A DNA stretch of 64,000 nucleotides, taken from the NCBI GenBank assembly GCA_021904315.1, contig CM038911.1, forward strand, positions 22,975,390 to 23,039,389. Reading direction: 5' to 3'. Within the stretch, counting starts at the first letter, position 1, and every line of letters starts with the position of its first letter. The notes under the pieces were generated by a model, which was not told the origin of the DNA, made no database searches, and worked only from the letters and a program-made list of their open reading frames with translations. Of the stretch, positions 2,585 through 38,800 are shown one piece after another. This DNA comes from Sphagnum magellanicum (taxonomy: Eukaryota > Streptophyta > Sphagnopsida > Sphagnales > Sphagnaceae). The translations under genes were made by a program, and so were the position numbers.

Positions 2585-4480
2585 AATGGGGTGAAATTAG
2601 AAACTTAGACCCTATTACACAAGCTAGGTTTGATGAGTTTTGGAACAACAATGTGTCACCTCAACACAAACCAAAAATGTTGTGTAGTGATGGATGTGAA
2701 ATGATTCATACTCCAAATGTTTGATTTAGGGTTGAAAGGAAAATGTGTTATTATTCCTTGTATTGAATTACCAACATTATGCATTGATGATTCATTTGAA
2801 GTTACAAACTTAACCAAGTTTTGAGGAACCATAGTTTCAAAGTTTTATGACCCACATGAAAGTGTGGCCATGCTTATAATTTTTTTATTTGGTCCATGGG
2901 GTCATTCAATTATGCAAAAGTTGTGGTTAAATATGTAGATGAGGATGACACTTCATTTAGTGATCCAAAAGTTCAAATCTAGGGTTGTAAACTTATGTCT
3001 CCATCTCATGATTTATTATAATATAGGTTCGTTGAAGATTCCAACTATGTCCTTGATGCCTCTTCTAGAATTCCTAAATCCATTGCCAGGCTAGATATTC
3101 TGTCATTGTATCCTAACACCAAAAGGTGGTATTTGAGTTCCCAACTTCTTACCCAATAATTAGGACTTGAATTTCCTAATGTGAAAGTCATGGAGGATTT
3201 GCCATATGAGAAATTGTTTGCAAATAACATGTGAAATTCTCCCAACACTCAAATTCCATTGGTTGTATGGAAAGGTGGGGAGCAAGGGCTAAGCATTTTT
3301 TTACCCCAATATGAGACCCCACCTAACTTTTTCTTTTTGTTTGGGCCCACTAATATCTTGAAAAGGCTATGTGTCATGAACAACATTTATGCCATCCAAG
3401 AGTTGGAAGGAGGAGGTGCAAAAGGAAGGATGAATTGGGTATGATTTACCATGCATGAATTGAGGTTTTTAATTGGAAGTTTTGATTTTCACAACCATCA
3501 AGAAATTACCCCACATTAAGTTTCATGGGTTTAAATCTATTGATCTTTTTGGCACCTCTATGATTACCAATTCTATGATTAGGTCTAGGTTTGAGGACAT
3601 TTTCAAATACATCCATTTAGTTGACAACAAATCAATCATAACAAATAAGGATGATTCTATTTACAACAAAATTGCAAAGACTAGATGGTTTGTTGAGACA
3701 TGCAATCAATGTGTGTAAGCAATTTCAGAATGCATAACATTATTTGTGTGTGGATGAAATGATGGTCATCTATAATAAGAAATACTCACCCATCTAGCTA
3801 TATGTGAAAACTAAACCTTGTAAGTATAAAGTGAAGGTTTGATGTTTGGCTAATGTCAAGTACAAGTTTGTGGAAAAAATGGAAATGTATTGTGGTGTAG
3901 GTCATGAAGATGTTGAACACACAACTAAATACAAGACTGTGTATGAGTTCATGAATGAGTATAAGAACAAGAATCACAATGTCACATGTAATCATTCTTT
4001 TTTTAACCCTACATTGTTTAGGGGATCTTTTGACGGTTAAGGTGCATGCCTCATGGACTTGCAAAACTGATTGTAGGGGGTGGTTGAGTGTTTTGATTGT
4101 TGATCTAAAGAAAGGATCAAAAAGACAACTCTAGTATCACATACACGTTTTAATTAAGCTTGTTGCAGTTTTTTGGTTTGACAACAAACCAATTTCCATT
4201 TTGCCCATTGTTTTCAATATAATTGATCCTATAGGTGCCACATGTGCAACTTGGTGGCATCTAACTAATCCACTATAAATCCTTACTAACCCATTGCAAC
4301 TAGTACATTACCATGAGCTTTTGCATGGGGTTTGTGTCCAAGATCAATTTCATGGGTATTATATTTTACAAAAAAGGATCTTAGATGATGGCATCCATAT
4401 TAATTGATACCACCATTATGAATTTGTACATCATGCACAAGGTGCATATGATTCAACTTGACAAGTCAACAAAAATGATG
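2585..4480 (+). pseudogene. Decayed piggyBac-type transposase (DDE_Tnp_1_7)
   Basis: A broken piggyBac/PGBD transposase, a cut-and-paste DNA transposon enzyme that normally targets TTAA. Fragments in successive frames follow the family order. An N-terminal piece (ARFDEFWNNN) lies near 2.6 kb. A conserved helix region at 3,473-3,718 reads like MIRSRFEDIFKYIHLVDN. The first catalytic Asp block VDEMMVIYNKKYSPI lies near 3,757-3,800, followed by KPCKYKVKV. The C-terminal block at 4,157-4,380 contains LVAVFWFDNKPISILP, a downstream VFNIIDP motif, and HELLHGVCVQDQFHGYY. In the last motif the usual VDVQDQ has become VCVQDQ, so one catalytic Asp is lost. Several stops and frameshifts interrupt it, so it cannot be active. 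piggyBac relatives are uncommon in seed plants, which makes the relic useful for placing the organism. Terminal repeats were not located. Family assignment rests on remembered motif order. Confidence 0.75.
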
Positions 4481-34477: not shown

Positions 34478-36882
34478 TCAACCCAATCTCAAACCACACA
34501 TCTGACAAAAAACTAATACCTTCTGACACTTGTTAAGATGTCGAATAGCCTGGACCAATCGTGCATCTCCAGCAACATCTCGACAAACTTTAATGAGTTG
34601 TTCCCGTGGCAACCTCCCAGTCTGGAACCAAAGAAACCTCATCAAACACTTTCATATGTCAATTCCGAATTAGTGACACTTCCAAGGAGAACTGTTTTAT
34701 TAACTTGAACTTTCAAACAGTTGTGACCCACCTTGAATGAAACATATTGCTGCTGCAGAAAATAAAGGTCTCCTGGTAACAGTTGCTGCCGCAAAATTTG
34801 AAACAGGCAAGGGAATGAGACACAAGGGGATGTTGGACCTAGCACATGCTGTTGAATTCCACCCACATGGTCATTCCATTCTTCTGATGGCCTTTGTGTC
34901 TGCACAACAGGAACTATATTGAGGCTCACAAACAGCTTCCATCCCAACCAAGGAGCCAAACTAACTAGCTAAAATATCTCCTATGGAAGCAAAAGCAAGC
35001 AGGAAGCACTGTAATCCAGAGCACAACTCAACCAACTGGTATGAGAACGTGTTAGAAAACTATTGAGCACGTGTTGAGCATCACTCTTGCACAGAGATGT
35101 CCCTGTAAGACCCTGTAAAAGATCCTACAGCCACCCAACAGACTGACAACAAGGATAGATGCTCAGACCTCATGCTAGAAGGATAAAGAGCCTTGCCCAT
35201 TACAAATCATTCACTGACAAAAGTGCAACAGGAAGTGACTTCGCAGAAGAGATAAACTCAAAGACAGACCTTAACGTAAAGACATGAAGAGGTTACTGGA
35301 ACTTCATTCCAAGTTCTGGAAATTCCTCTCTGGTTCCCCTTGACTTCTGCCATCAAATCTGCCAGCAGCCCGCTACAGTTAGCCAGGTGTTTCTGTATGA
35401 AACTTAACAGGATAGATGCAGGCACAACAGCTACCTTGCATGAGTACCTCAATTCAACAACAGGTGCTAGGTCTGACATCCGAAACAGCATGAGATTTCA
35501 TAGATTCCTAATTCAAGCACAGTCCCGTGAAAGTAAACAACCACCAAACTATACGATGATGGAAAAATCAGAAAGCTAGTTCCCTCATCAAGAACTGTCA
35601 TATACAAATGCAGAAACTTACTGTGCCATTTAGGGGACAACTTGAAACTGACCACATAAAGTGGGAGAATGTGAGTGTTCATGTGAGTACTCCATATAAT
35701 TAGTCGCTTAGGATCAGACAGGTCATCTACACCTGTGTCAAAGTTTTCACTGCTTGGGTGGAACCGATCAGAGCCTTGTAAAACAAGCTCTGCAGTCCCC
35801 AATATGACCCTACACAGCAACATGTGTTGCTCCCCATTTTCATCATTATCTGCATACACAGCACTATACATAGACAATTCACAGATCAGTCTCATTACAT
35901 CAGGAGCCCCCACAAAATGCCACTCAATGAACCTCACTTAACAAAGAGCTAATCCACCAAACAGACGTAAGACCCAGCTCAACTGAACAAACAGTAAGTG
36001 GCAATATGTCTTGAGTGCATAAGGAATATGTTTTCACCTGACTTCAGCATGATTTTCTGGGGCGAGATACACTCCAACACCATAAGCTGAGCCATTCCTT
36101 GGTGTCCTAGGCTGTCCAAAGCCATGAAGAATGATCCCTGAAACACCTGCCTTTGAACTACCATGCCATGCATATTGCACATTAGCATTACCTCTGTTCT
36201 CTCTTGTTAGCTGTTCCTGTCTTTCAAAGGCTTCCTGCCGTGCTTGTCCTTTGGAACTTGTATCTCTGTAGATCCCTGTTATCAGGACATCTGACCCAAA
36301 CTCACCTAGTCCTTTGATAAGCTTGCCCTTCACATCCATAAATTCCTCCTCGTTTTCTAGGGAAGGCCATGCAAACTGCACATTAGCATGTCCTTGGGAC
36401 TGTCTTATCAGTTGTTCTTGTCTTTCAAAGGATTGCCACTGTGCTTCTCCAGTTATACCAGAGTCTCGATAGATCCCTGGTATTACAGAGTCCGAATTAA
36501 ACAAACCAAGACCTTTCAAAAGCTTGGCCTTGGCCTCTGCAACTTCCTCCTCACTTTCCAGGGCAGGCTGTTGCTCAGAGATTGCATTCTCCCAAGATAG
36601 TGGCAACACCTCTCTTTGACTAGAATGATTTCCTCTGGTGAATACTCTCTTGGCAAACCTGCCGTGCAGACAAGTTGGCTTTGTGGAGTCCAGGCTGCTG
36701 AGGTCCTCAACTCTGGTTCGTTTAATAATTTCCTGTATGCATTGATCTCCATTTGCTGGTGCAACTGCAGATAGAGTGGTAACAACCTTGCAACCTTGCT
36801 TCCGTTTTCGGCCGTGTTCAGAACTAGTAAAACTATGAGGAGTGGTATTGCTGGCTGAATTTCCATTGGAACTAACTTCCAT
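34478..36882 (-). CDS. SRO-family protein: PARP-like domain plus RST domain, with duplicated PARP start
   Basis: Model (minus): exon 1 36,882-36,038, exon 2 35,863-35,622, exon 3 35,430-35,345, exon 4 34,621-34,478, 438 aa, phases consistent. Residues 1-105 are polar with a basic patch (GRKRKQG). The PARP-like domain includes NANVQYAWHGSSKAGVSGI, NGSAYGVGVYLAPE, then DENGEQHMLLCRVILG and STHMNTHILPLYVVSFK. The C-terminus reads as an RST domain (ILLSFIQKHLANCSGLLADL, then REQLIKVCRDVAGDARLVQA), which in RCD1/SRO proteins binds transcription factors. No WWE domain is seen, so it resembles the short SRO class. Residues about 110-173 and 177-241 are a tandem duplicate of the PARP N-terminal segment. 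The exon 3 donor is uncertain (an alternative lies further downstream), and an in-frame ATG at 36,945 would add a hydrophobic leader that I judge to be non-coding. Likely a nuclear stress-signalling adaptor with doubtful ADP-ribosyl transferase activity. Confidence 0.85.
36037..36600 (-). repeat. Tandem duplication of about 200 bp inside exon 1 of the SRO gene
   Basis: The string GCACATTAGCAT occurs at about 36,178 and 36,379, a period of about 201 bases (67 codons), and the downstream text matches through the ..TTCCTCCTC..TTTC..GGG block. Because the period is a multiple of three, the frame is kept and both copies are translated. Confidence 0.85.
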
Positions 36883-38800
36883 TATCATATACAAGTCGAC
36901 TAATTTCAAAAGCAGAACAGCTAATACCAATATATTTACAAGCATCTACCAGTTGCCAATGTAAAGCCTGCAGAGCAGACCAACAAATCATGTTAGAATA
37001 CATCAAATTAACACTAAGGTATGGCAAAGTATGACAGCACAAAAGAGTGTGCCATATATATGTGTGAACAAGTGCCTAAACAGACAGTACCTCTTCATTA
37101 AGAGTACTTCATAGAAAGCCCCAAAAAAAAAAACATACCCAATGCACTGGCATGCTGTAGGAACTAGTTTACTCTAAATCATCATTATATGCAAATTAGT
37201 GGAGAAAAAACTTACACAAGCTCAGAAAGTGAGAGCAGGAAGATCCTCCTTCACATAGAGGCACCTAAATGCACAAGACAACATACTATGAGACTTGAAA
37301 TCTGTACCTCATTGTTAAAAAACTAAATAGAAAACAAAAACCAAAAGAAAGAATTGTCAGAAAGACTGCAAAGAGCCCAGGTCCATATTCACTAACATAA
37401 CTTTGTTGTTGGTTACCAACATGGAGATAGTGAAACTGATAGCAAACTGCCCACACTTTGCTCTAGTTTTTTCAGTTGCCACATGCATGACAAACTGCCA
37501 AATTGGACTCTACGGTAAACAGCATATTCCCCAAGTAAAAGGCCCAGGCATCAGTGATGCAACAAAGCAACCAGACCCTGCCAAGTTGTGAGCCAGGCAG
37601 CTAGATATGTACCCTACAGTAAAAAAACTGCAGAAAGACAAACCCTGATGAAGTCTCTTCCTCTTCCTGGTTACCAGCACAGGGAGGGGGAGGAGGAGCA
37701 GCAGAGGCCCTTCGTCACATCTCAGCAGTCATCAAGAGCATACCCATCACATCGCTGGGTCATCAACAGCATACCTTCTCATAGAAAAAAGAGCGAAAGA
37801 CTTGTGTAAGACAACATGTAAGTCGTTTCTTCTCTCCCTACAATGCTTGTGCCGATGCTACTACTATCTTTCCTTCTTTCTTCTCGCCAACAAATAACCA
37901 ACTCTTCCCTACAGCAAATCTGCAACAACAACAAGTCCTCCCATGATTTCTTGTCTGCAATAAGTTCTTCTTCTATCACTACGTCCTTCCCCAGCGAGTT
38001 ACTGCCACAACCCCTTAGGGTTTGAGGAAGAAGAATAATAATAATAATAATAAGAAAGAGGGATGCAAACTCATGTGTTTTCCCGTTTTATTCACCACAT
38101 CTGCTTCATCTTCTTCCTCATCATAGTTTCTAGACACAACGAGCTGAGCATGCGGGGGGCCATTAAACAAGCGCCCCGTTTCTGCGCTTCTCTACTGTCT
38201 CCCGAACTTGACAACGACACCAAGATTCTTCTTCTTCTTTGTTTCTTTGTTTATTTCTTCTTCTTCTTCTTCTTCGCTCATTACCTACCCTGAAACCAAA
38301 CCCTGAACCCGCCGAAACCCTGAACCGACCAAAACAAGAGCGCGAGCCGAGGTGGAAGAACGCAACAGTGGACACAGCACACTCTTTGGCAGCCAAGCAC
38401 ACGAGACAGCGGAACAGGAGGCGACGGTAACGGCCTATTGGGTTCCTACAGAAGATGAAGAAGAAGCAACGAGGAGGAGGTGTAGACCAAGGGACGCCAT
38501 CGCCATCGCGGCCGCTGCAAGCAAAGCTTCCGGGAGGCAACGGGGGTGGAAGCGCACTAACGTGGGCGGCAAGGCAGCCAAAACGGTGCGGTGCGTGGGA
38601 GAGAATAGAACCGACCGGTCTCGAACCGGGCGAACAGGCGGCCCTTGAGAGCGGCCGTTTTGATTGGCTATGTGAAACCGTGCGGACGCTGTTTGTTTGG
38701 CGTGCGTGCAACGCCAAGTCTTTTGCGGCACATGTTCCACGTCCCGAATTAACTCCGCGGCAAACTCCGGACCCACCAAAACCCCACTTGGTCCCGTGTT
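36883..38800 (-). promoter_or_regulatory. Probable 5' leader (with intron or introns) and promoter of the SRO gene
   Basis: Balanced composition continues for about 1.9 kb upstream of the start, with a (TTC)n/(GAA)n run at about 38,228-38,276, an (AAT)n run at about 38,033-38,054 and a TTAGGGTTT telo-box-like word near 38,016. The frames here on both strands are low-complexity. Exact exon limits and start site are not determinable. Confidence 0.4.

Follow-up and report, generated by a model that had tools for sequence, protein, structure and literature searches.

An old tandem duplication that repeats the N-terminal part of the PARP-like domain in frame in four SRO genes of Sphagnum magellanicum

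Introduction

Proteins of the SRO family of plant stress regulators (RCD1 and SRO1-5) carry a PARP-like domain followed by an RST domain. In RCD1, the residues L333, H365 and N428 stand in place of the H-Y-E triad, and the PARP-like domain has been suggested to be a scaffold rather than an enzyme (PMC6175486). The triads of the SROs of Physcomitrium patens are described as more conserved and potentially active; no WWE domain was detected in PpSRO1c, and PpSRO1a and PpSRO1b were called likely incomplete (PMC2848248, Jaspers 2010). The gene described here shares the order of PARP-like domain and RST domain with the family, and like PpSRO1c it has no detected WWE domain. Unlike in the SRO family, however, the first 67 residues of its PARP-like domain are present twice, and the first two triad positions, L and H in RCD1, are occupied by H and Y.

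Exon-internal in-frame tandem duplications are arranged head-to-tail and preserve the reading frame within one exon. The duplication reported here has the same properties, but a partial fold was copied instead of a whole domain, and it can be dated by a quartet of genes from genome duplications.

Chromosomes 1, 2, 5 and 8 of Sphagnum are regarded as the four descendants of an ancestral chromosome A, formed by two genome duplications with Ks peaks at 0.643 and 0.406 (PMC9946827, Healey et al. 2023). An earlier study cited there placed these duplications at 189-247 and 102-122 Ma, and the paper itself puts the divergence of Sphagnopsida at 391 Ma. A repeated PARP segment does not appear to be mentioned in four publications on the SRO family (PMC2848248, PMC2964712, PMC6908617 and PMC8490783). 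Literature searches combining Sphagnum with SIMILAR TO RCD returned nothing, and searches on partial or tandem PARP domains, bryophyte SRO or RST proteins and partial domain duplication yielded no description of the repeat among the matches listed.

Here, we analyzed an SRO gene with a duplicated segment in a window of 64,000 nucleotides (C5:22975390-23039389), compared it with its paralogues in the same genome, and asked what became of the two copies.

Materials and Methods

The genome searched comprised 438,994,042 bases in 31 contigs, here numbered with the prefix C. Since the genome search scored the best candidates only, all counts of matches are lower bounds and further copies are possible. 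Positions refer to the window unless a contig is given, and residues were counted from the ATG conserved among the paralogues. Ratios of replacement to synonymous substitution rates (omega) were obtained by counting, pooled over the six paralogue pairs, and by codon likelihood on the four paralogues.

Results and Discussion

Gene structure and domains

The gene lies on the minus strand and was modelled with five phase-consistent GT-AG exons encoding about 520 residues, the 3′ end being uncertain. The coding part of exon 1 (36038..36882) is an open frame, whose start is conserved as MEVSS or MEISF in the four paralogues and whose donor site (AG followed by gtg) is found in 4/4. It encodes an N-terminal region (residues 1-105), two repeat units named U1 and U2, and the 42 PARP-like domain residues that follow them (36040..36165). 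Exon 2 (35622..35863), bounded by phase-consistent GT-AG junctions, encodes the remainder of this domain and is 79-88% identical to the paralogues on C1, C2 and C8 and to partial copies on C6 and C19. A further exon between the PARP-like and RST parts is predicted at 35270..35472 from protein-level similarity of the paralogues and from phases fitting on both sides. The RST domain exceeded the Pfam cut-off (PF12174, 22.7 bits) in two adjacent exons, with 24.5 bits for its first half (34732..34899) and 23.8 bits for its second half (34520..34621), both with matching junctions.

The part of the PARP domain encoded by exon 1 alone reached 38.8 bits (PF00644, cut-off 26.7), and a Pfam search of exon 1 gave no match besides PARP. 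With U2 and the downstream exons as query, the best matches were the solved PARP-like domains of SRO1 (7plq, E 8e-42) and RCD1 (5ngo, E 7e-37), covering 173 and 167 query residues, respectively. Judged by its PARP-like and RST domains, the gene is a member of the SRO family. No WWE domain (PF02825) over the cut-off was found at the SRO genes, although a diverged WWE could escape the model, and the gene is therefore not a structural type A SRO. Two WWE matches lying close together at C18:345136-346324, outside the SRO genes, were the only ones over the cut-off in the genome.

By ungapped alignment to L333, H365 and N428 of RCD1, the triad positions in this protein are H240, Y272 and R335. Hence, the H and Y of the H-Y-E triad of active PARP/ART domains are present and E is replaced. 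The H-Y-R triad, encoded at 36040-36165 and 35622-35863, is identical in all four paralogues; an arginine at the third position seems unusual. The presence of H and Y in the triad and the undetected WWE domain fit a moss SRO, as more conserved triads and, for PpSRO1c, no detected WWE domain were reported for P. patens (PMC2848248).

Two adjoining units of 201 nucleotides in one exon

The first-pass annotation had reported an in-frame tandem duplication at 36037..36600 with a period of about 201 bases. This was confirmed. U1, the extra copy (36367..36567, residues 106-172), and U2, the PARP-like domain's own copy (36166..36366, residues 173-239), are adjoining 201-nt units on the minus strand with boundaries between codons in the same exon. 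In the region 35500-38500, a repeat finder detected one long family of direct repeats, consisting of two copies (36165-36365 and 36366-36566) that were 71% identical with a period of exactly 201, and the remaining nine repeat families did not exceed 20 nt. U1 and U2 align without gaps, with 142 of 201 nucleotides and 39 of 67 amino acids identical (BLASTP E 5e-30), close to the 38 of 66 estimated by eye. The four shared blocks named before (KGLG.F.SD, GIYRD, FERQEQL and ANVQ.AW) are all present, and only the residue ranges given at first pass (110-173 and 177-241) had to be shifted by a few positions. Because the similarity at lag 201 declines to either side of the pair, there are two copies and no third.

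A chance similarity was rejected, as the best pair of 201-nt segments elsewhere in the exon (lag of at least 30) had 81 matches and the best pair in 200 codon shuffles (codon lags 60-420) had 86, compared to the 142 observed. An assembly artefact was excluded by three further genes on other contigs with both units in frame.

U2 runs on as YAWHG into the PARP-like domain and aligns to SRO1 (7plq) and RCD1 (5ngo), while U1 leads directly into the next unit (WPSL), as had been noted from the sequence at first pass. U1 stops just short of the first catalytic position: its last residue directly precedes the place of the triad H, which is taken in 4/4 genes by a proline, the first residue of U2. The arrangement is not a tandem repeat of a complete domain, since U1 ends before the first triad position and had no Pfam match when searched alone. 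From the alignment to RCD1 and SRO1 and general knowledge of the fold, U1 would correspond to the strand-helix-strand segment ahead of this position. A single-sequence AlphaFold2 model of residues 96-281 drew helix-strand-helix-strand in both units, with a mean pLDDT of 37.7, which is too low to be weighed.

SRO genes and fragments in the genome

A query of 175 residues covering both units matched at least six places, namely the window gene and loci on C2, C8, C1, C9 and C19. The matches on C2, C8 and C1 had near-full coverage and 73-74% identity. As to whether all SRO orthologues share the two-unit segment, a question raised by the first-pass annotation, both units were found in frame in 4/4 SRO genes with an intact first exon, within the scope of this one genome. 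The four intact genes are located one each on C1, C2, C5 and C8.

Several incomplete copies were also observed. A decayed SRO exon 1 lies in C9:13225001-13233000 at approximately positions 3400-3850; it retains both units and is interrupted by a frameshift and four stops. A partial copy in C19:17355001-17363000 resembles the C1 gene, starts inside U2 and covers query residues 125-175. Another one in C6:13105001-13113000 resembles the C8 gene and has no exon-1 match. No match to the RST exons was found within the 8 kb examined for each of the C19 and C6 copies, which are probably gene fragments. A search for the PARP family gave two additional loci (C18:5.49 Mb and C2:27.79 Mb), which we take to be canonical PARPs, and a search for RST gave an additional locus at C15:7.245 Mb, presumably a TAF4-like gene, as well as weaker places.

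With exon 2 as query, at least six good matches were obtained (the four genes and the copies on C19 and C6), together with at least 15 short ones. The latter are of a dispersed type: a dispersed repeat family carries an SRO fragment of about 330 bp that corresponds to window positions 35401-35731, i.e. the last part of exon 2, the intron behind it and the beginning of the exon that follows. This fragment is 78-85% identical to the C5 gene and about 70-80% identical over shorter stretches to other SRO copies. For the eight dispersed copies read, the longest common stretch per pair was 1.2-4.3 kb with 80-89% identity, and the one copy checked for ORFs >90 aa contained none. The pattern looks like capture of a gene fragment by a non-autonomous element.

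The duplication preceded the split of the four genes

In a tree of the eight units, the U1s were split from the U2s with support of 100/100 (DNA) and 98.5/96 (protein), and in the protein tree RCD1 and SRO1 attached to the U2 side. The pooled synonymous distance between U1 and U2 was 0.64, compared to 0.48 among the U1s and 0.37 among the U2s. These unit trees, and a U1-U2 synonymous distance above the distances within either set of units, indicate that a single duplication of the unit preceded the split of the four genes. In these sequences, we see no sign of later homogenisation of the units. The branching order of the paralogues had weak support (68.8/73), and the two genome duplications are not separable by the synonymous distances among them (0.33-0.39).

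Neighboring genes were compared for further hints on the origin of the quartet. The neighbor at 61.7-62.2 kb of the window, which we take to be the photosystem I subunit PsaL, was matched at one other place alone, which lies on C1 at a distance of 15 kb from the SRO gene of that contig (70% over 49 residues). For a receptor-kinase gene at 27.3-28.1 kb, a match in two pieces (66% and 63%) was located on C8, at a distance of 26 kb from the SRO gene there; this C5-C8 link is the weaker one, since the longest matches of the receptor-kinase gene were found on C11 and C4 (60% and 58% over the whole query). None of the 18 matches of an antenna-protein query lay within about 0.5 Mb of the C1, C2 or C8 paralogue, none of the three window neighbors tested had a match near the C2 SRO gene, and a query from the C1 locus searched against the genome matched itself only. 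Overall, the neighbors shared between C5 and C1 and between C5 and C8 lend some support to a common origin of the SRO quartet.

The contig numbers C1, C2, C5 and C8 appear to be the chromosome numbers of the quartet descending from ancestral chromosome A. If the dates for Sphagnum divinum in PMC9946827 apply, the unit duplication would have occurred about 190 million years ago or more. The divergence of Sphagnopsida at 391 Ma is an upper bound on it only if other mosses are without the repeat. The two-unit segment might instead be common to the SROs of mosses or bryophytes and not a change of the Sphagnum lineage, which we regard as possible, though on the unlikely side. A duplication older than the split of the four Sphagnum genes would fit such a wider distribution, as would the fact that PpSRO1c is likewise without a detected WWE domain (PMC2848248); against it, the accounts on P. 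patens (PMC2848248 and PMC6908617) do not appear to mention a repeated PARP segment. The annotation at first pass of an extra half-domain foreign to the RCD1/SRO architecture agrees with the texts of PMC2848248, PMC2964712 (Citarelli 2010) and PMC6908617 (moss RCD1), in which none appears to be described.

Unequal constraint on the two units

U2 is under purifying selection, and U1 evolves near neutrality, residual constraint being at best hinted at. The counting estimates of omega were 0.98 (N-terminal region), 0.58 (U1), 0.33 (U2) and 0.13 (rest of exon 1), and the codon-likelihood estimates were, in the same order, 1.08, 0.74, 0.35 and 0.12. An omega of 1 was rejected for U2 (2dlnL 13.4) and the rest of exon 1 (29.9), and was not rejected on the four paralogues for U1 (1.44) and the N-terminal region (0.15). 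The omega values of U1 and U2 differed (2dlnL 4.09, with the shared omega taken from a grid of eight values), their order being reversed in 5.6% of bootstraps. In 0 of 2000 bootstraps was the replacement rate of U1 as low as that of U2, and in 39% it reached that of the N-terminal region. Two residues were lost from U1 in the C2 gene, one in the C8 gene and four in the C1 gene, and none from U2. In neutral simulations, U1 kept 191 residues compared to 192.4 expected (reached in 0.65 of runs), and U2 kept 235 compared to 225.1 (0.006). By omega, residue losses and neutral simulation, U1 thus resembles the fast-evolving N-terminal region more than U2. The N-terminal 105 residues themselves (36568-36882) have an omega of about 1 (0.98-1.08) despite basic clusters shared by paralogues, of which RKRK occurs in 3/4 and KRxRV in 4/4.

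The first copy had been described at first pass as an added module. That U1 is added and derived was borne out by the tree with RCD1 and SRO1; a clearly working module was not, U1 being indistinguishable from neutral across the four paralogues by codon likelihood and simulation, with weak constraint left by counting. As the main alternative, it is conceivable, but in our judgement unlikely, that U1 is a functional add-on, i.e. a partial ADP-ribosyltransferase lobe serving as a protein-protein surface or as a regulator that replaces WWE. Such a role would agree with the retention of U1 in 4/4 paralogues and with point estimates of its omega below 1 (0.58-0.74); by counting, the bootstrap 95% interval was 0.37-0.92 and 0.85% of bootstraps reached 1. 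Also, VQFxW, the motif that closes U1, does not vary among the four genes, and hydrophobic columns tend mildly and non-significantly to be retained (12 of 16 compared to 8.9 expected, p 0.09 in the neutral simulation with variants up to 0.17; with columns defined by RCD1 and SRO1, 7 of 15 compared to 5.0, p 0.15). The absence of a WWE over the cut-off near the SRO genes and the scaffold role suggested for the RCD1 domain (PMC6175486) point in the same direction. On the other hand, the likelihood test leaves neutrality of U1 unrejected, its replacements equal the neutral expectation in number and in placement (17 of 70 within hydrophobic core columns, compared to 17.0 expected), and its in-frame losses include the four residues in C1, which fall within a presumed helix.

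A special form of this idea, in which the partial PARP lobe acts as an intramolecular regulator, docking on or swapping with the true N-terminal half and thereby controlling the H-Y pocket, appears improbable to us. If it were true, the lobe would have remained a fixed feature of the Sphagnum SROs over some 200 million years or longer, and the H-Y-containing pocket may still bind NAD in mosses. Even less probable is that one downstream PARP-like half pairs with either U1 or U2, the two units competing as its N-terminal partner and giving two conformers. U1 does end exactly where U2 enters the common remainder, and the units before the split were still alike, their majority versions differing at 14 of 67 positions (a lower estimate, as ties in U1 were broken towards U2); but since then U1 has diverged and lost residues whereas U2 lost none, and U1 is separated from the downstream half by U2, which would need to be looped out. 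That splicing removes one unit and leaves a single-copy protein is most improbable, as all indels in U1 have lengths divisible by three, which agrees with its being translated, and no intron is required in exon 1 because both units stand in an uninterrupted frame in four genes.

A probable eroding relic in a variable linker

We consider it fairly probable that a 201-nt duplication in an SRO gene of the Sphagnum ancestor left U1 as a linker relic that is now eroding. At a time before both genome duplications, 201 nt of exon 1 would have been doubled head to tail, possibly by unequal exchange or slippage, and the frame stayed open because 201 is a multiple of three. The downstream U2 would still have completed the PARP-like domain with all that follows. 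The upstream U1 would form a partial fold leading up to, and lacking, the first catalytic position; with no pocket residues of its own, it presumably could not build an NAD pocket alone. It may have been tolerated because its place is a variable stretch that follows the basic N-terminal region and precedes the PARP-like domain, and in which type A SROs carry their WWE domain and linker. U1 would now be chiefly extra linker, eroding slowly under weak or no selection in all four genes. Some points speak for caution towards this reading of an eroding relic: the counting method puts the omega of U1 below 1, its VQFxW end is unchanged and its hydrophobic columns are kept somewhat better than expected, and its retention in all four copies through two genome duplications may hint at a use. 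Still, U1 is most likely a tolerated relic in the variable N-terminal linker.

Conclusions

The repeat is real, old and clean, and its direct functional weight is probably modest to small. Its value lies in being a clean, datable, exon-internal duplication of part of a domain that can be traced through two genome duplications. As all four resulting genes carry the same repeat, the decay of a spare piece of a fold can be measured beside its working twin. Moreover, with the H and Y of the triad present, the SROs of peat mosses lend themselves to the question whether NAD binding was retained in early-diverging members of the family.
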